64,000 nucleotides of DNA. It comes from Nocardia bhagyanarayanae. GTDB taxonomy: Bacteria; Actinomycetota; Actinomycetes; Mycobacteriales; Mycobacteriaceae. The stretch lies in contig NZ_VFPG01000001.1 in NCBI RefSeq assembly GCF_006716565.1, forward strand, positions 1,426,001-1,490,000, read 5' to 3'. Position numbers and translations under genes: made by a program. Every line of letters begins with the position of its first letter. The first letter of the stretch is position 1. This document shows, one piece after another, positions 2,126 to 43,972 of this stretch. A model generated the notes under the pieces. The model ran no database searches. It saw only the letters and a program-made list of their open reading frames with translations, and had not been told where the DNA came from.

Positions 2126-2199
2126 TGGGCCTAGGAGGACTTGAACCTCCGACCTCTTCGTTATCAGCGAAGCGCTCTAACCGCCTGAGCTATAGGCCC
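2126..2199 (-). tRNA. tRNA-Ile (anticodon GAT)
   Basis: A complete 74-base cloverleaf on the minus strand. The acceptor GGGCCTA pairs with TAGGCCC, the anticodon loop CTGATAA carries GAT, and the T arm reads GGTTCAAGTCC. CCA is not encoded. It precedes tRNA-Ala downstream of gyrA, the usual actinobacterial arrangement. Confidence 0.97.
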
Positions 2200-2513
2200 G
2201 TGTTGGCTCTCGCACCGTAGTGGGCGAGCCGAGGACAAAGATTACCCGACACCACCTGGAAGGACCAAAACGGCTGGTAGCGGGCTCGCGGTCTGCGGCT
2301 CTTCCGCCTCGAACGACATTCGGCCGGCGCCGCTCCGGCGTGTACTCCCGCCTACGGTCGGCGTCGACCTGGCGTGACTCTTTCCCCGGGAACGGCGACG
2401 GCCGATACCGCCCTGGAATGGGAGGTACCGGCCGCTGCCGAGGACTTTCGCGGAACGCCCGCCTGAGTTCGCGCACTGCGCGGAGCCGACGACGGACGCC
2501 ACCCGCCTATGGA
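2200..2513. other. Intergenic gap, DUF3566 gene to tRNA-Ile
   Basis: These 314 bases separate the DUF3566 stop codon from tRNA-Ile on the minus strand. I see no gene with a ribosome binding site, no strong hairpin and no repeat. It presumably carries the tRNA promoter, but I could not pick out convincing -35 and -10 boxes. Confidence 0.5.
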
Positions 2514-3611
2514 CTAGTCCGGGTCCGCCAGGGTGACCTGGATACCGCCGACCAGGTCGCAGCACTGGTTGTAGATGAACGTGCCGACCGTGCCGAGCGC
2601 GGTGAACAGCACCACGTTGATCAGGCCGATGACGCCCGCGTAGCCGAAGACCGTGCCCGCGTCGATCAGGCCCACCGAGCCGCTGTCCTGGGACACCATG
2701 TCGGTGAAGGTGTTGTTCAGCCGCTCCCACACACCCATGCCCTCGAGCACGATGTAGAGCAGGCCGACGGCGAGCATCCACACGAAGAACAGCGCCACGC
2801 TGATCACCAGCGAGATCTTCAGCGTCGACCAGGGGTCGATGCGGCGGATCTGCACGGTGGCGCGCAGCGGCTCACCGGAGGCGACGGCCGCCGCGACCGC
2901 GACCGGAGCCGCGGGCGAGACGTGCGCCTGCGGGCTCACGCCGACGGGCTCGGGGTGCGGTAGCGGGTGCCGGATCTCGGAGAGGTCGGGCATGTCCTTG
3001 ATCAGTTCCGGCCGCGCGATGCTGCGGGTGGGTCCGTCGATGCCGACCGACTTCACCATCGCCGCTTCCTTGCGCGCCGCCTTGGCCGCGAGGTCGGCCG
3101 TGGTGCGCGCGTTGGTGACGCCGCCGTTCAGGCCGACCGCCGCGCCGCCGCCGGCGCCGAGCCCGCCGCCACCGTCCGCGGGCGGCCTGCCCGCCACCGG
3201 CGCCTGACCGGGGCGGTACAGGTTCGACTGCGGCTCGCGCTGCGGCAGCTGCGACCAACCGTCCTTGTACTGCGACTGACCACCGCCCGGCGCGGGCTTG
3301 GCGCCGTCGGGACCGCCGGATTCACCGGGCGAGCCCATCCGAACGGTCTCCTGATCGAACCCTTCCTGCTTGCCGCCGGACTCCGGCGCGCCCTTGGGCG
3401 CACCCTGCTTGGGCGCACCCTGCCCGGGCCCGAAATCGCCCTGCTGACCGGCGTTCTGCTGCGGCTGGCCACCCTGCTGGCCCCCGCCCGGCTGTCCGGT
3501 TTCGCCCGGGCCGGGCCGGGGGATCGGCCGCGGCGGAATCGGAGACGGTGCGATCCGTTCGGTCACACCGTTCGTCTGGTGTCCGTCATTCGGCTGATTC
3601 GGAGTGGTCAA
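2514..3611 (-). CDS. DUF3566 membrane protein, 365 aa
   Basis: The counterpart of M. tuberculosis Rv0007, which sits directly after gyrA in mycolic-acid bacteria. Its function is not established, though its place and build suggest a cell-envelope or division role. Residues 1 to about 240 are a disordered Pro/Gly/Gln-rich cytoplasmic tail. The C-terminal 125 residues are the DUF3566 domain, with membrane helices around [20 protein letters not shown] and [20 protein letters not shown], between them a short loop with [14 protein letters not shown]. The start is TTG (3611), chosen because AAGGA lies six bases upstream. It begins 41 bases after gyrA and is probably co-transcribed with it. Confidence 0.9.
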
Positions 3612-13452: not shown

Positions 13453-13641
13453 AGCCCGTTTTCGCTGGTCCGGGGGTGTGGTGCCGTGGGGATGGCCGTC
13501 GGGTGACTCGAGGATGAACCGGAGGCGTCTGTGGAGGTTCGAAAACTGTCCCCCGTTCATCCTCGAGCCGTCCTCGAGTTGTTCCACCGGATTCACCCGG
13601 TTGTTCACACATGTGCACCGAACGGTGGACAGCTCGAGGAA

Positions 13642-13844
13642 TCCTCGAGGACTCCACACGGACTCCTCGAGGATTCCACAGGCGCCGGACCGAGACGTGG
13701 CTGGTCAGACCCTGTGGGCAGAGATCAATGGGGATGATGTTGATATCCGGCTGTGAGCGACTCCGCCACGAGCCTGTGCACGAATCGGTGGACAAACCAG
13801 GGGATTCCTCGAGGACTCCACAAGGAATCCTCGAGGAATCCACA
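13642..13844 (+). repeat. Four 17-bp composite modules in oriC
   Basis: TCCTCGAGGACTCCACA occurs at 13642-13658 and 13806-13822. Variants TCCTCGAGGATTCCACA (13664-13680) and TCCTCGAGGAATCCACA (13828-13844) complete two pairs. In each pair the copies start exactly 22 bases apart, about two helical turns. Each module joins the palindrome CCTCGAGG to a DnaA core TCCACA in the same orientation. Partial relatives with CTCGAG lie at 13507-13514, 13562-13567, 13572-13579 and 13633-13640. Confidence 0.85.
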
Positions 13845-13850
13845 ACGCAC

Positions 13851-19221: not shown

Positions 19222-19459
19222 TCGCCCGACCGTGCCGAAGGGCGGCGCGTTTCGTCACGCTGACGATTGATGATTCGATTGGAGTGCCTCCGCCTCGCTC
19301 GGGCCGTGCGCGGTCCGAGGGCGGAGGGCGGTCCGATAGTGTCGTCTAGGCCTCTGGTCTTCGGACCGGAGGCCTTCTCCATGCCGGGGGCGCTGCGGCC
19401 CATGGCCGAGGCGGACACCCCTCCCCTCTTGCAATTGGTCGACCTCGAGCTCGGAAGGA

Positions 19460-19475
19460 TGTTTCACGTGGAACG
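19460..19475. other. parS: parS-like site 1 (rsmG start)
   Basis: TGTTTCACGTGGAACG matches 14 of 16 positions of the bacterial parS consensus TGTTTCACGTGAAACA. ParB binds such sites and spreads to build the segregation complex. It overlaps the first codons of rsmG. Confidence 0.75.
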
Positions 19476-20253
19476 AGAACTCGGTGGAAGCGCCGCGCTG
19501 CCGACCGAGCTGGAGCCGCCCGCGGCGGCCGCCACCGTCTTCGGCGATCGGCTCGACATCGCCCGCCGCTACTGTGCGGCGCTCGCGACCGCGGGTGTCG
19601 AGCGTGGTCTCATCGGACCGCGCGAGGTGCCGCGGCTCTGGGATCGGCACATCCTCAATTGCGCGGTGGTCGCGGAGCTCATGCCCGAAGGAACGACCGT
19701 CGTCGACATCGGCAGCGGTGCGGGGCTACCCGGCATCCCGTTGGCCATCGCCCGCCCCGACCTACGCATCACCCTGGTCGAGCCGCTGCTGCGCCGTACC
19801 GCCTTCCTGAGTGAGTTCATCGAAGCGGCCGGACTCGACATCACCGTCGTCCGCGGCCGCGCCGAACAATCCGGCGTGATGAAGGAAGCGGGCGGCGCCG
19901 ACGTCGTCACCTCCCGCGCCGTCGCCCCCCTCGCCAAACTCGCCCAGTGGTCCCTCCCCCTCCTCCGCGACCACGGCCGCATGCTCGCCCTGAAGGGCGT
20001 CAGCGCAACCGAAGAGCTGGAGCGCGACGGCGAGGCACTGACCCGCGCGGGCGCCGGTAAGTTCGAGGTCCTCGAATGCGGTGTGGGAGTGCTCGATACA
20101 CCCACGGTGGTGATCAGCGCCGAACGCCTCCCACGAGCGGAACGCACACCACGCCGCCGCACGGAGAAGGTCGGTAGCCGCCGCGCGACCGGCCGCCCCG
20201 AGGGCGGAGTCCTCCGCCGCAACACCGAACGCCGTCGCTCGAGCGAGAAGTAG
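19468..20253 (+). CDS. rsmG: 16S rRNA m7G527 methyltransferase RsmG
   Basis: RsmG methylates G527 (E. coli numbering) of 16S rRNA using S-adenosylmethionine; loss gives low-level streptomycin resistance in several actinobacteria. The SAM-binding motif is [16 protein letters not shown], preceded by [10 protein letters not shown]. The C-terminal 40 residues are Arg-rich. I chose GTG 19468 (261 aa), with GGAAGG nine bases before it. ATG 19459 is in frame but abuts that site. The sequence from 19460 to 19475, spanning both starts, is a parS-like palindrome. Confidence 0.94.
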
Positions 20254-20283: not shown

Positions 20284-20299
20284 TGTTTCACATGAAACA
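20284..20299. other. parS: parS-like site 2
   Basis: TGTTTCACATGAAACA differs from consensus TGTTTCACGTGAAACA only at the central G (15 of 16). It lies 30 bases after rsmG. Confidence 0.75.
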
Positions 20300-20919
20300 G
20301 CGTCCCGATCCGCCGACCTCCAGATCCCTCGACCGGTTGGCGTCATCGGACGACTCGGCCGGATCTCTCGCCCGTAGCGCAGCCTGCCTCGGCGCCATCG
20401 CTTGGTCGGCCTGCGCTCCCCCGCGAGGACGGCTGCTTCGATGTCCAGACGGTGCGGCCTGACAGCTGGTCTCCCGATCCTCGGCGGATTAGCTTGGCCG
20501 GGTGGTGCGCAGCACGGCGGGATCGGTGTATTCCCGCCGGTCGGTACCGCTAGCCGCCGAGCGTGGCTCTGAGCGCCATACAGGGCCGGAAGCCGTGCGG
20601 CTTGCGGTTGACCTTTGGCGCGGCACGCTGGCTCCGCGGATCGGTTCGAATCGTTCGCGTACCCCGACGATTTAGTTCGACCGCACGGCCGGATGGCTTG
20701 ACCCAACGCCGCCACGATGGCTCGGCCAGAGAGTGTGACGAGACGGCGCTCCTGATGCCGGGCGGATGGCTCAGTACGATCAGGCCTCGCTCAACCCGAT
20801 AGCTCGGCCGATTCATCTTCGGGTCCGGAGCAGTCGGCTCGGGCGAGGGCTCAGTTGTGCGGTTCGCTTTGTGGGCGAGAGGTGCGTCGAATCGGGCTGG
20901 GTTGGAATCGCTCGGCGGA

Positions 20920-20935
20920 TGTTTCACGTGAAGCA
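20920..20935. other. parS: parS site 3
   Basis: TGTTTCACGTGAAGCA, 15 of 16 against the consensus. The same variant recurs at 21963 and 23625, and its reverse complement at 23861. Confidence 0.88.
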
Positions 20936-21164
20936 TCGCCCGGCCGCTCGAACTTGCTGATGTCGAGTCCCGCCGAACGTTGATCCCCTAGTCCGGTTCA
21001 GTCGTCACGGCGGTGCCGAACGCGCGCTCATGCCGATTACATCGCGTCGTGTTCGATCTCCGTGCCAGCGCCACCAGTGAACGGTGCAGAACGTTCGCAG
21101 GGCGATCGACCCGCGATCCACGAATGCGGTCGACAGCGCGCGGGGTGATCAGTTGAATCGGGGC

Positions 21165-21938
21165 ATGATGCGTGTCCGGTTCGAGTTGGCGCCCCTCGAG
21201 GAGGTTGTTCCGTGGGGGGAGCATCGCCGTCTGCATTGGTTCGGGCTCACCCAGGGGTGGTACTGCCTGGAGGTTGGGGGTGTCGAGTTGCTGAGATATG
21301 CAGAGCGGTCCGGGAACTCGATAGGCCATGGCGGCGCCGCCGTGACGTCGTGGGTGGACTATTACGTGGTGCGGCTGTGGGAGGACCTGCTCGCCGTTCT
21401 GCCCTCGGCCCTCGAGCCGGTACCGGATGATTTGGCGCAGTTCTTCGCCGCTGGCTCCGAGGGGTGGGTCGACACCGGAGATCCGGCTCTCCTCGACGAT
21501 CCAGCGATCGACGCCGCTTCCGAGGCGTACGGCCTGCGCTGGACCGACACTTCGTATCTGCGATTCGGGCCCGCGTTTCGCTGGTGGCGCACCCTCGCCC
21601 CCGAGGACACGGTCACCGTGGCGTGGCGGTTCGCACCCGATCCCGATGGTGAGATCACGTTCTCCGCGCCGCCGTCGGGCGTGCGGACGGTCGGCACGAA
21701 GGAATTCATAGCCGCGATAACCGATTTCGACCACCGGCTGCTGCAAGCCATGCAGGAGCGTGTCGACCACCTGGTTGCGGCCGGTGGTATCCCGGGGATC
21801 GAGCTCGATATCCCTGCGCTGATTCGGGAACAGGCCCAGCGCCGGACGTGGTTGCCGCGGGCGTTGGCACGGCAGGACGACACCGACTGGGCCGCCGTAC
21901 GCGCAGGCGCGGCCATCCTGGCTCCGCATCTGGCGTGA
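21165..21938 (+). CDS. DUF5984 family protein, 257 aa
   Basis: A protein of unknown function resembling DUF5984: it begins MMRVRFELAPLEEVVPWG and has LHWFGLTQGWYCLEVGGVELLRY near the N-terminus. It is rich in Trp and acidic residues (SWVDYYVVRLWEDL, AFRWWRTLAPEDTVTVAWRF), with no signal peptide or membrane segment. Two adjacent ATG codons (21165, 21168) could start it. No strong ribosome binding site is visible, so the start is provisional. It stands alone in the non-coding field between rsmG and parA, flanked by parS sites. DUF5984 proteins are scattered in actinobacteria, so gain by transfer is plausible. Confidence 0.72.
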   Translation: MMRVRFELAPLEEVVPWGEHRRLHWFGLTQGWYCLEVGGVELLRYAERSGNSIGHGGAAVTSWVDYYVVRLWEDLLAVLPSALEPVPDDLAQFFAAGSEGWVDTGDPALLDDPAIDAASEAYGLRWTDTSYLRFGPAFRWWRTLAPEDTVTVAWRFAPDPDGEITFSAPPSGVRTVGTKEFIAAITDFDHRLLQAMQERVDHLVAAGGIPGIELDIPALIREQAQRRTWLPRALARQDDTDWAAVRAGAAILAPHLA

Positions 21939-21962
21939 ACGCACGGAACTGCGGACCGCGGA

Positions 21963-21978
21963 TGTTTCACGTGAAGCA
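21963..21978. other. parS: parS site 4
   Basis: TGTTTCACGTGAAGCA, 15 of 16, located 25 bases after the DUF5984 stop codon. Confidence 0.88.
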
Positions 21979-22172
21979 TCGCTCGGCATACGAATTCGGC
22001 GGCGCCTCAGGGCCGCTCGCCGGTTCTCCAAACCAGCGAGCCTCACCGCTATTCGCGCGGCTGGGGCGTTGCCGCATCGCGCATCCGCGCCCGTGCCCGC
22101 CACCGCTTCCGACAGCCCGCATCTGGAATCGCTGCGCCTGGAACGCTCGCCGCCGACAACTCGGGCCACCGC

Positions 22173-23412
22173 TTGGCCCGATGGCTTGGCCCGACGGCTT
22201 GGCCCGACGGCTTGGCCCGATGGCGCGGTCTGACGGCGCGGTCTGACGGCGCGGCCCGATGGCGCGGCCGGATGGCGCGGCCGGATGGCGCGGCCGGATG
22301 GCGCGGCCTGAAGGCGCGGCCGGATGGCGCGGCCGGATGGCGCGGCCTGAAGGCGCGGCCGGATGGCGCGGCCGGATGGCGCGGCCCGATGGCGCGGCCG
22401 ATGGCGCGGCCTGAAGGCGCGACCCGACGGTGCGGCCGATGGCGCGGCCTGAAGGCGTGGTCCGATGGCGCGGCCCGAAGGTACGGCCGGACGGTGCGGC
22501 CGATGGCGCGGCCTGAAGGCGTGGTCCGATGGCGCGGCCCGATGGCTCGGCCGGATGGCTCGGTCGGATGGCGCGACTCGAAGGCGCGACTCGATGGCGC
22601 GCCCTGAAGGTTCGGCCTGAAGGTTCGGCCGGATGGCTCGGTCGGATGGCGCGACCCGATGGCGCGGTCCGACGGCGTGTCCGGATGGCGTGGCCGGATG
22701 GCGCGACCCGATGGCGCGACCCGAAGGTTCGGTCCGAAGGTTCGGCCCGAAGGTTCAGCCCGATGGCGCGACTCGAAGGCGCGACTCGAAGGCGCGACCC
22801 GAAGGCGCGACCCGAAGGCGCGACCCGAAGGCGCGACCCGAAGGCGCGGCCTGAAGGTTCGGCCGGACGACGCGGTCCGACGGCGCGACCCGAAGGCGCG
22901 ACCCGAAGGCGCGGCCTGAAGGTTCGGCCGGACGACGCGGTCCGACGGCGCGACCCGAAGGCGCGACCCGAAGGCGCGACCTGAAGGTTCGGCCCGAAGG
23001 CGCGACCCGAAGGTTCGGCCTGAAGGTTCGGCCGGATGGCGCGACCCGAAGGCGCGACCCGAAGGTTCGGCCCGAAGGCGCGACCCGAAGGCGCGACCCG
23101 AAGGCGTGGCCGGATGGCGCGACCCGATGGCGCGACCCGAAGGTTCGGCCCGAAGGTTCGGCCCGAAGGCGCGACCCGAAGGCGTGGCCGGATGGCGCGA
23201 CCCGATGGCGCGACCCGATGGCTCGGCCGGATAGCGCGGTCCGTTGGCGCGGTCCGATGGCGCGACCCGATGGCTCGGCCGGATAGCGCGGTCCGATGGC
23301 GCGGTCCGATGGCCCGGCCCGACGGCGCGACCCGAAGGCGCGGCCTGAAGGTTCGGCCGGACGGCGCGGTCCGACGGCGCGGTCCGACGGCGCGTCCTGA
23401 AGGTTCGGGCTG
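22173..23412. repeat. 13-bp degenerate tandem array, about 95 units
   Basis: About 1.24 kb of head-to-tail 13-bp units with consensus GGYKYGRYCBGAH. Frequent forms are GGCGCGACCCGAA, GGTTCGGCCTGAA and GGCGCGGCCGGAT; the left edge has TTGGCCCGATGGC phasing. Phase is kept except for 12-bp units near 22395 and 22433. Higher-order copies exist: a 65-bp block (five units) repeats from about 22848 to 22913 and again from 22978, and a 64-bp block repeats from 22431 to 22495. More degenerate units continue to about 23470, and two isolated ones lie at 23507-23534. Because 13 is not a multiple of three, every frame reads a 13-residue repeat and stops are scarce. There are no spacers, so it is not CRISPR. 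Confidence 0.95.
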
Positions 23413-23624
23413 ATGGCGCAGGCGGATTGCTCCCCCGGATCGCACGGCTCGATCGCGAGCCTGGCGAGTGGGCCGGGGCGGCCCTTGCCCGCTGGAGTGC
23501 CTTGATGGCGCGGTCCGATGGCGCGCCCCGACAGCAGCAGTGCGCGCCCCGACGCTCGGTCTCACAGCTTGGTGGATGGTGCGATGGACAGTGGTTCCGA
23601 GGGCGCAGCCGGGATTTGGGTGGA

Positions 23625-23640
23625 TGTTTCACGTGAAGCA
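23625..23640. other. parS: parS site 5
   Basis: TGTTTCACGTGAAGCA, 15 of 16, identical to sites 3 and 4. Confidence 0.88.
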
Positions 23641-23860
23641 TCGCTCGGCGATGCGAGCTCGATTGCGGGCAGTTCTCCCTGTGAAGTCGGCGGCGAGAAG
23701 CGGACGATCCAACCGCGCGGCGCGAGCCTGCCATTGGTTGTGCGACGTCCAAGCAACGAGACACGACGCTGCATAGACGAGAGTGCCAGCGTCTTGAATG
23801 CGTGAATGGAAGGCGCAGCGCCACTCTCCGTAGGAGCGCGGCATTCCGCCCTTCACCCAA

Positions 23861-23876
23861 TGCTTCACGTGAAACA
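23861..23876. other. parS: parS site 6 (inverted variant)
   Basis: TGCTTCACGTGAAACA, the reverse complement of sites 3-5; 15 of 16 against the consensus. Confidence 0.88.
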
Positions 23877-24325
23877 TCGCCTGTCCGGTGCACGGCCGGG
23901 GCAGTCCGCGAATCAACAGCACAACCCGACGACGCCCCGATTCCTCCTCCACACAAGAAGATCTGCGAGGGCGCGCAAAGTTCAACTCGCCGAATGCACC
24001 CCAACCTGGCACCCCGAACCCGCAATCTGCCCAGTGGAAATCACACTCCCCGCCGGAAATCCTGCGGCACGCAATGTTCATTCGCGTGGATCTGCGTGTC
24101 GCCGCGATTCAACTTTCTTCTAGCGCTCAGTGCTGGCAAGCTAGTGTGCGTCGGGCGTGAGCGTTGATGCCACGGTGGGATGTGGGTGTGCGGGACAGCT
24201 CCGCTCGGTTGATCGGGCGCCGTCCCGACGGAGCATCATGTTCGATCCGACACAGGCTGTTGAAGACACGGCGCCGGCGTGGGCCGAGGGCACGTGGTCT
24301 GTAGTTCTCTGGTTAGGAGCTGTCT

Positions 24326-25330
24326 ATGTCGAGCGGTCCGGCGAATGTTTCACGGGAAACTACGTCGCGCGTGCCGGGGATGCTGGACTCCAGCAACTTC
24401 GACGCGGAGGCATTCGGAAGCACACCGTTCGGGCACATCTCCCCCAGCGAGACCCCGATCGCGGCCGAGGCTCAGCGCGCAAGTCAGATATTGCATCCAG
24501 GAAAGGTGACAGTGCCGAAACCTCGCGAGCAGCGCATCATCACCATCGCGAATCAGAAGGGTGGCGTCGGTAAGACGACGACGGCGGTGAATCTTGCCGC
24601 GGCCCTTGCGCATCAGGGGATGAAGGTGCTCGTGATCGATCTCGATCCCCAGGGCAACGCCAGCACCGCCCTCGGCATCGAGCATCACTCGGGTGTCCCT
24701 TCCAGCTACGAACTGCTCATCGGCGAGGTCTCCGTCAAGGACGCTATCCAGCAGAGTCCGCACAACGAGCGGCTGCTGTGCATCCCGGCGACGATCGATC
24801 TCGCGGGTGCGGAGATCGAACTCGTCTCGATGGTCGCCAGGGAGGGCCGCCTCAAGGGCGCCATCCAGGAGGCCAATATCGCGGGCTACGACATCGATTA
24901 CGTCATGATCGACTGCCCGCCTTCCCTCGGCCTCCTGACGGTCAACGCGCTCGTCGCGGCCAAGGAGGTGCTGATCCCGATCCAGTGCGAGTACTACGCG
25001 CTGGAGGGCGTCGGCCAGTTGCTCCGCAATATCGGTCTGGTGCAGGCGCACCTGAATCCCGAGCTGCACGTGTCCACGGTGATTCTCACGATGTACGACG
25101 GGCGCACCAAGCTCGCCGACCAGGTCGCGGAGGAAGTGCGCGGCCACTTCGGCGATGTGGTGCTGCGCTCGGTGATTCCGCGCAGCGTGAAGGTCTCGGA
25201 GGCGCCGGGTTACGGAATGACCGTGCTCGATTATGATCCAGGCTCCCGGGGTGCGATGAGCTACCTCGACGCCGGGCGTGAGATGGCCCAGCGGGCGATG
25301 GCCCGGCAGGCCGCGAACGGCGCGGAGTGA
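24326..25330 (+). CDS. parA: Chromosome-partitioning ATPase ParA
   Basis: ParA (334 aa) is a deviant Walker ATPase that binds DNA non-specifically and moves ParB-parS complexes, so separating the origins. The Walker A motif is [14 protein letters not shown] near residue 75, A' is [13 protein letters not shown] and Walker B is [12 protein letters not shown] leader of about 65 residues precedes the ATPase fold; part of it (NVSRET) is written by a parS-like site. Start is ATG 24326 with AGGAG six bases upstream. It is separated from rsmG by about 4 kb, instead of the short spacing seen in many relatives. Confidence 0.97.
24346..24361. other. parS: parS-like site 7 (inside parA)
   Basis: TGTTTCACGGGAAACT, 14 of 16. 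It encodes the NVSRET stretch of the ParA N-terminus. Confidence 0.65.
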
Positions 25331-25400: not shown

Positions 25401-26420
25401 ATGAGTCAGGCGAAGAAGGGCGGGCTAGGACGAGGTCTGGCGGCGCTGATCCCGACGGGGCCCGCGACCACGCAGGGACTCGGCAGCGCCGCGGCCAACG
25501 TGGTGATCGGCCTCGATCCCATCGGTCCGCAGCCCGCTTCGGCGTACCTGCACCGCGTCCCTGATCCCGACGACACCGCCGACGAGGCCGACCTCGCCAC
25601 CCCGGGCGGCGCGGTCTACCGCGAGATTCCGCCGGACCAGATCGAGCCGAATCCCAAGCAGCCGCGCCAGGTCTTCGAGGAAGAAGCGCTCGCCGAACTC
25701 GTCCACTCCATCCGCGAATTCGGCCTCATGCAGCCGATCGTGGTGCGTCGCGTCGAGGCGGACCGCTATCAGCTGATCATGGGCGAGCGCCGCTGGCGGG
25801 CCGCCCAGGAGGCGGGCCTGGAAGCGATCCCGGCGATCGTCCGGGAGACCGCCGACGAGTCGATGCTGCGCGATGCCCTCCTGGAGAACATCCACCGGGT
25901 GCAGCTGAACCCCTTGGAAGAAGCGGCCGCATACCAGCAGCTGCTCGAGGAATTCGACGTAACCCACGAAGAACTGGCCACCCGGATCGGTCGATCCCGT
26001 CCGGTCGTCACCAACATGATCCGTCTGCTGAAGCTGCCGATCCCGGTGCAGCGACGGGTCGCGGCCGGCGTGCTGTCCGCCGGTCACGCACGCGCCCTGC
26101 TCGGACTCGAAGCGGGTGCCGACGCACAGGAGGTGCTGGCCGCCCGCATTGTCGCGGAGGGTCTCTCCGTGCGTGCCACCGAGGAAGCCGTCACTCTGGC
26201 CAACCGTGATCCGGACGCGGCCACTCCCCCGGCTCCCCGGCGCAAGCCGATCCACATGCCCGGTCTGCAGGACGTGGCCGAGCGGCTGTCGAACTCGTTC
26301 GATACCCGGGTGACCGTGAGTCTCGGCAAGCGCAAGGGCAAGATCGTCGTCGAATTCGGGTCCGTGGAAGATCTGGAGCGCATCGTCGGTCTGATGGCGC
26401 AAGAGCAGCTCGGTCAGTGA
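25401..26420 (+). CDS. parB: Chromosome-partitioning protein ParB
   Basis: ParB (339 aa) binds parS and spreads as a CTP-dependent clamp. The N-terminal [14 protein letters not shown] is the ParA-interacting motif. The CTP-binding ParB/Srx core has [17 protein letters not shown] and [14 protein letters not shown], followed by [19 protein letters not shown]. The helix-turn-helix is [20 protein letters not shown], and the C-terminal dimerisation domain ends [18 protein letters not shown] start 70 bases after parA. Confidence 0.97.
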
Positions 26421-43294: not shown

Positions 43295-43972
43295 ATGAGG
43301 GAACCGAAATCGCCCTGGCAGCGATACATTCGCGCCGCAGGAGACCGGGCGCTGCTCGTCACGCCCGACGAACCCGCTCGGGCCGCCGGGTTGGCCGACG
43401 CCCTGCGTGTCAGCGCGCCGAAGGGTGTGGAGGACGTGTTGCCCGCCGCGGAAACCGTTCTGGTGACGCTGAATTCGCCCGACGACGCCGAATCGGTGCG
43501 CCGCGAGATCTGCGCGCTACTGGAAAGCTTCCAGCACGAGGTCGATTCGGGCGATGTTTCCCGTGGAACATTGCCGCACAACGGCTCTCCCGAACCACTG
43601 GTCGTCCCGGTGCGCTATGACGGCGCGGATCTCGCCGATGTCGCCGAGCTGCTCGACATGACCGAGGACGAGGTGATCGCCGCGCACACCGGCACGGTAT
43701 GGCGTTGCGCGTTCGTCGGATTCGCACCGGGTTTCGGTTATCTGGAGTCCCCCGACGGAAGGCTCACCGTGCCGCGCAGGGATACCGCCCGTACGTCCAT
43801 ACCGGCAGGCGCGGTCGCCCTCGCGGGCGGCTTCTCGGCGGTGTATCCGCGCAGTACGCCCGGCGGATGGCAGTTGATCGGCCGCACCGATCTGACGATG
43901 TGGGACGTCGACCGCGATCCGCCCGCGCTGATCAGGGCGGGTGGGCTGGTTCGTTTCGAGGTGGCCCGATGA
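43295..43972 (+). CDS. pxpB: 5-oxoprolinase subunit B (KipI-like)
   Basis: PxpB (225 aa) carries the allophanate hydrolase subunit 1/KipI domain. Signatures are AAGDRALLV near the start, PVRYDGADLADVA, GTVWRCAFVGFAPGFGYL and the near-C-terminal PGGWQLIGRTDLTMWD. It pairs with PxpC to form the oxoprolinase component. It starts 12 bases after pxpA and its TGA overlaps the pxpC ATG. A parS-like palindrome lies within the gene at 43555-43570. Confidence 0.95.
   Translation: MREPKSPWQRYIRAAGDRALLVTPDEPARAAGLADALRVSAPKGVEDVLPAAETVLVTLNSPDDAESVRREICALLESFQHEVDSGDVSRGTLPHNGSPEPLVVPVRYDGADLADVAELLDMTEDEVIAAHTGTVWRCAFVGFAPGFGYLESPDGRLTVPRRDTARTSIPAGAVALAGGFSAVYPRSTPGGWQLIGRTDLTMWDVDRDPPALIRAGGLVRFEVAR
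43555..43570. other. parS: Outlying parS-like site in pxpB
   Basis: TGTTTCCCGTGGAACA matches 14 of 16 of TGTTTCACGTGAAACA. Both changes keep palindromic symmetry in part. It lies about 18 kb from parB and 30 kb from oriC, inside pxpB, where it encodes DVSRGT. Confidence 0.5.

Follow-up and report, generated by a model that had tools for sequence, protein, structure and literature searches.

The parS field between rsmG and parA in Nocardia is a place that repeatedly grows short tandem repeats of mostly unrelated sequence, and it is the place that is new. The array from which this analysis departs lies in a 64,000-nucleotide stretch of the Nocardia bhagyanarayanae genome (7.56 Mb, assembled as 2 contigs only), hereafter the window, which corresponds to C1:1426001-1490000, and we consider it, with a probability of about 0.7, to be a minisatellite outside coding sequence, enlarged by slippage or unequal exchange at a place of recurrent arrays and without a sequence-specific job. 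The original prediction had put the array forward as a candidate undescribed element, a description that fits the hotspot but not the window's 13-mer; in the literature searched, with subscription journals thinly covered, no tandem arrays in the Nocardia rsmG-parA interval were found.

TRF, run on the 64-kb window, returned 23 rows and placed a single array at 22175-23419 (period 13, 96.0 copies, 80% matches, score 1041; the runner-up scores 91). Split unit by unit, the array consists of 95 units, 92 of 13 bp and three of 12 bp, in 36 variants with the consensus GGYKYGRYCBGAH, in agreement with the roughly 95 copies of this motif that had been predicted between rsmG and parA. Identity at lag 13 is 0.80, and the maximum over any lag in 1000 Markov shuffles is 0.384. 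Positions G1, G2, G6, G11 and A12 are nearly invariant, and seven positions carry most of the variation, in many combinations; the rare unit variants are few and scattered over positions, in which we see no constraint on particular letters. The units adjoin head to tail without the unique spacers of a CRISPR array, as had been noted at the outset, and in number, arrangement and sequence variation they match the usual description of a minisatellite (variable units of roughly 6-100 bp arranged head to tail).

From the origin outward, the gene order is dnaA (minus strand, up to 16116), rnpA, yidD, khpB/jag (the product of which has R3H and KH domains), rsmG, the DUF5984 gene, parA and parB. The features of the field and its borders are as follows, in window coordinates.

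19267..20253, + strand: rsmG/gidB, start codon uncertain (Pfam GidB, 4.9e-50)
19460..19475, + strand: parS-like site, 2 mismatches, within rsmG
20284..20299, + strand: parS-like site, 1 mismatch
20340..20860, + strand: stray or decayed members of the 13-mer family, 5' of the DUF5984 gene (5 unit-like matches scoring >=7 bits; mean in shuffles 0.38, P<=0.001)
20920..20935, + strand: parS-like site, 1 mismatch
21084..21938, + strand: DUF5984 gene in the field (Pfam DUF5984, 2.8e-83)
21963..21978, + strand: parS-like site, 1 mismatch, nearest left of the array
22175..23419, + strand: tandem array, period 13 bp, 95 units given in the parA orientation (TRF, unit split and autocorrelation)
23430..23620, + strand: stray 13-mer units just 3' of the array, best pair 23507-23532 (4 unit-like matches, shuffle mean 0.14, P<=0.001)
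23625..23640, + strand: parS-like site, 1 mismatch, nearest right of the array
23861..23876, + strand: parS-like site, 1 mismatch
24080..24325, + strand: stretch 5' of parA, probable parA promoter region (present at this position in many further Nocardia; DNA search, 150 genomes)
24326..25330, + strand: parA (Pfam AAA_31 and CbiA; matched in 147 of 148 genomes of the genus)
24346..24361, + strand: parS-like site, 2 mismatches, within the parA start
25404..26420, + strand: parB (Pfam ParB_N, HTH_ParB and ParB_C)

Seven of the genome's nine parS-like sites (at most 2 mismatches) span the segment from rsmG to the parA start, so that the array sits inside the main parS cluster, and the one-mismatch sites at 21963 and 23625 confirm the predicted parS on both of its sides. 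Isolated two-mismatch sites flank the main cluster at window 43555-43570 and at G000:C1:1414574-1414589. Across 146 Nocardia genomes, the parS-like sites of the rsmG-parA interval (hereafter the gap) are mostly imperfect palindromes, the commonest being TGTTTCATGTGAAACA (72/385) and another being TGTTTCCCGTGAAACA (49/385), and their cores tend to have CGA ahead and TCG behind. Near the dnaA end, window 13638-13845 contains 22-bp palindrome-like repeats with the core GGATTCCTCGAGGAATCC, and similar 22-bp repeats were seen in several Nocardia loci. The ParA protein of the window is 92% identical to that of Nocardia sp. CNY236. Some part of window 21084-24325 was matched in 90 of 150 genomes at E<=1e-8; at parA loci, the match is confined to the last 230-310 bp or less 5' of parA, except in G108, the closest sister species compared. 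Among 93 loci tested, only the window and G108 have the DUF5984 gene within the parS field, and DUF5984-like DNA (72-92%) lies elsewhere in other Nocardia (92% in G147:C1, 84% in G011:C2), which makes it look like a moving gene.

Within the 13-bp array, exact repeats occur at distances of 13, 39, 52, 64, 65 and 78 bp, which points to tandem copying of blocks of one to six units; the predicted nested duplications are there, with exact repeats of 53 bp at distance 64 and of 97 bp, the longest, at 65. Some blocks recur 416-494 bp apart, and between-unit identity declines steadily with distance, from 0.80 at one unit to 0.41 at 59. A seed of a few units may thus have been enlarged by repeated slippage or unequal exchange into the present array.

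The original prediction would have been undermined by arrays of the same 13-mer at random positions, and these were looked for: the unit family forms an array at one place only in the source genome. With the array as query, 148 genus genomes gave its own copy once and the corresponding locus of G108. Matches of any kind at E<=0.001 occurred in 32 of the 148, but re-examination of 29 match loci (L072-L100) revealed no array of the window's 13-mer family beyond L072, the locus of G108; L079, also at parA, carries another unit, and the four strongest off-locus matches (L073-L076) are repeats of period 12, 18, 24, 36, 60 or 72 bp. A dispersed 13-mer family was therefore rejected, the off-locus matches being other repeats.

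The ParA protein of G108 is 100% identical to that of the window, and three long blocks align at 88.6-91.8% identity. G108 shares the DUF5984 gene in the field and the flanks of the array, and between those flanks it has about 4 units (around L181 7165-7220), three of which reach 7 bits, versus 95 in the window; copy number thus differs between close relatives, as in minisatellites, with the caveat that G108 is a draft in which collapse is possible. Upstream, G108 retains a decayed stretch of the family (10 unit-like matches, shuffle mean 0.75). The decayed units and the few copies indicate that the family predates the split and that the large copy number is not common to both genomes. Judged from these two sequences, growth in the window's lineage would be the simpler reading, and loss or a collapsed assembly in G108 (about 110 contigs) could account for the near-empty site. 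A search for the 13-mer at the same locus in other Nocardia, suggested with the original prediction, accordingly succeeded for G108 and not beyond it: the window's unit has no close match among the units of the other gap arrays (best 0.48, threshold 0.6).

The recurrence of arrays at this place was assessed in a genus set of 150 genomes, one per species, of which 148 were searched for parA and 147 were positive. Up to 8 kb 5' of parA was taken from 146 genomes and added to the window's own; the whole rsmG-parA gap lies on one contig in 138 of these 147 loci, and a contig ends inside it in 9. Short-unit arrays were defined by a TRF score >=100, a period <=20 and >=5 copies. Gap length ranges from 244 to 7824 bp (median 1004, 138 gaps). 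In these whole gaps (229,123 bp), 54 short-unit arrays were found in 37 genomes; the remainder of the same loci (1,032,722 bp) has 4, with periods of 15, 15, 15 and 18, and 40 control stretches of 20 kb (800 kb) have one (period 15). Because genomes share ancestry, Poisson comparisons of these array counts overstate the case; on a tree of ParA and RsmG, array presence requires at least 23 changes (138 rows) or at least 24 (144 rows). With the loci that have a contig end in the gap included, the count rises to 60 arrays, carried by 43 of 147 genomes, and the proposed link of the array to the parAB/parS place holds at the level of the genus. A tandem array lies within 100 bp of the contig end in 5 of the 9 interrupted loci (L035, L049, L053, L213 and L317), and drafts therefore probably under-count gap arrays.

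Arrays in rsmG-parA gaps also occur outside the genus. Twenty-four genomes of other families of the order were searched, and two of the six fetched have a short-unit gap array outside called genes; these are L066 (16 bp x 5.2) and L068 (18 bp x 13.6), whose gaps of 3.5 kb and 2.5 kb are the longest of the six. An earlier idea of arrays restricted to Nocardia was therefore abandoned. Among 80 named loci, the 77 from outside Nocardia have no gap array at score 100, period <=30 and 5 copies; 68 of these 77 have gaps <800 bp. Four Agromyces/Microbacterium loci (L169, L171, L178 and L180) combine gaps of 2.3-4.1 kb and 5-7 parS-like sites with no short-unit arrays.

The 60 gap arrays fall into 47 unit families, 44 of them confined to one genome, the pattern expected of centromere-linked satellites, in which the place is kept and the unit sequence is replaced between species. 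The largest families are one with an 8-bp unit (8 genomes, 7-53 copies) and one with a 13-bp unit (4 genomes, 13-17 copies), and their persistence in several species indicates that turnover is not always fast. Among 56 pairs of genomes with whole gaps at tree distance <=0.03, 43 are arrayless, 8 have a family in common, and in 5 only one partner carries an array (the window and G108 are one such pair). GC skew of the units is positive in 35 of 60, negative in 14 and zero in 11. Units of 9-12 bp are absent from the 147 Nocardia loci at both the strict (0/60 arrays) and the lax (0/103) threshold, and lengths of 8 bp (13 arrays) and 13 bp (16 arrays) are common at the latter. TRF recovers simulated 9-12 bp arrays in 30 of 30 cases, an autocorrelation scan of the gaps gave lag 10 in one window only, and 11- and 12-bp arrays are present outside the gap. 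Under a rough null of equal likelihood, the chance that 47 families avoid four of the unit lengths 5-20 is about one in a million (0.75^47).

Plain slippage alone does not predict such a hole in unit length, and the hole argues against it. A doubtful alternative is that the arrays are bacterial pericentromeric satellites: a field loaded with ParB and SMC would provoke arrays through fork stalling or unequal exchange between sister origins held together, and a physical filter would remove units of 9-12 bp, about the length of one helical turn. Proteins that act as roadblocks stop ParB as it slides away from parS (PMC8299390), which makes ParB-linked effects on arrays thinkable. If this alternative were true, Nocardia and some relatives in the order would offer a bacterial case of centromere-linked repeat turnover.

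The relation of arrays to gap length bears on two further explanations. With arrays discounted from the length, array-bearing gaps number 0 of 31 below 400 bp and, in successive length classes, 1 of 25, 5 of 32, 13 of 28 and 18 of 22, the last above 3000 bp. In a logistic model, gap length explains array presence and parS number adds nothing once length is counted (coefficient -0.30, s.e. 0.36); parS number was thus rejected as a driver, and the link to parS is positional only. Gap parS sites lie on both sides of 47 of the 54 arrays, and arrays lie no closer to parS than randomly placed ones would. Copying of parS together with its flanks was also rejected as a general route of field growth, flank identity being 0.32 both within and between genomes; one within-genome pair of flanks reaches 0.93.

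We consider it unlikely that length itself, and not sequence, is selected, such that arrays lengthen a gene-poor spacer or sliding track for ParB clamps or SMC. Non-array gap length and parS number do correlate (Spearman 0.77), the closest array end to parA is at 362 bp, with none within 361 bp, and the halting of ParB by roadblocks mentioned above would also fit; more speculatively, the missing units of helical-turn length could mean that phased DNA is removed. Gap lengths, however, spread over the full 244-7824 bp within one genus, a few hundred bp suffice for many genomes, and 17 of 88 loci have called genes within the gap.

The same dependence on gap length could mean that the gap counts only as a long non-coding stretch, of a piece with any long intergenic region in which arrays arise, and repeats with units >20 bp are indeed as common in control segments (12 in 34 controls, 48 kb) as in gaps (36 in 83 gaps, 207 kb). 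Short-unit arrays behave differently: among non-coding segments of >=800 bp, none was found in 34 controls (48,319 bp), a sample drawn from the remainder of the window and from 47 stretches used as controls, with coding called by a rough codon model, versus 54 in 83 gaps (207,053 bp), and the parB side has one (period 18) in seven 20-kb stretches. Chance of place is therefore a very unlikely explanation. Long-unit repeats are not enriched in the gap, which weighs against the reading preferred here and makes a view of the gap as all-purpose repeat-prone DNA too simple. As a separate observation, L258 (G000:C2:550001-570000) has at 2190-3368 a 198-bp unit in 5.8 copies (score 817) in DNA called non-coding.

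The original prediction was right to place the array with parAB and parS and to allow for a minisatellite, and its neutral alternative is the best fit; the roles that it suggested, namely binding a protein, shaping DNA or insulating ParB spreading, gained no support. Six array pieces fold as single strands no better than the shuffle mean (z 0.08 to 2.19), no RNA family reached gathering scores in 18-27 kb of the window, and 31 of 138 genomes manage with a field of <400 bp (arrays discounted) and no array. It is highly improbable that the 13-mers are sites for a protein such as a ParB helper, a condensin loader or an origin-binding factor, in the manner of direct-repeat plasmid centromeres. The position between parS sites and the five nearly invariant letters would suit such sites, but the array contains no parS-like site at <=3 mismatches, the rare variants show no clear constraint, G108 makes do with about 4 units, and most units bear no relation to those of other species, a pattern that speaks against a protein binding a specific sequence, even though ParA is 84-100% identical among full-length genus matches. 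That the open minus-strand frames at 21967-23565 and 22049-24025 (antisense, 532 and 658 aa) encode a repeat protein is scarcely credible, because the 13-bp units, whose length is not a multiple of three, and the three 12-bp units among them shift the frame, the codon model calls DUF5984 alone in the gap, the Pfam scores are 23.1 and 22.1 against a 60-bit cut-off, the array is nearly absent in G108, and none of the 54 gap arrays lies mostly within a called gene.

In the reading that we prefer, a minisatellite at a recurrent place, arrays would grow and decay in DNA that selection on the parS sites and on the parA promoter retains. The excess of short-unit arrays may stem from errors of copying or exchange where the DNA replicates early, is covered by ParB and has its two sister copies close together.

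Mycobacterial VNTR loci serve for typing, and the parS field is a candidate strain-typing locus, albeit one that is under-assembled in drafts. Bacterial minisatellites and VNTR loci likewise have degenerate head-to-tail units, nested duplications and copy numbers that differ between close relatives; the Nocardia interval differs in that it keeps the position and not the unit sequence, with its 47 families across the genus. The jag-gidB-parA-parB region of mycobacteria, as described in PMC2346475, resembles that of Nocardia in gene order and in having parS upstream of parB, but in M. smegmatis the gidB stop overlaps the parA start, at the place where Nocardia has an interval of 244-7824 bp. Further parallels come from centromeres. 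Some plasmid centromeres (parC, sopC type) consist of direct repeats. Direct repeats acting as parS are mentioned in PMC7022226, and such centromeres share with the Nocardia arrays a position adjoining the partition gene pair; in Nocardia, however, inverted-repeat parS sites are present separately, and the 13-mer is unrelated to parS and not conserved.

Satellite repeats surround eukaryotic centromeres. Like the Nocardia arrays, they are tandem arrays that flank a chromosome-sorting site and occupy the same place with units that differ between species, although the Nocardia arrays are short (up to about 1.2 kb) and missing from many genomes, and the likeness is one of position that does not imply shared packaging or function. 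The rapid turnover of centromere repeats is an old puzzle in eukaryotes, and if the repeats at Nocardia parS hold their place but not their sequence, its possible causes, whether replication, recombination or protein loading, could become testable in small genomes.
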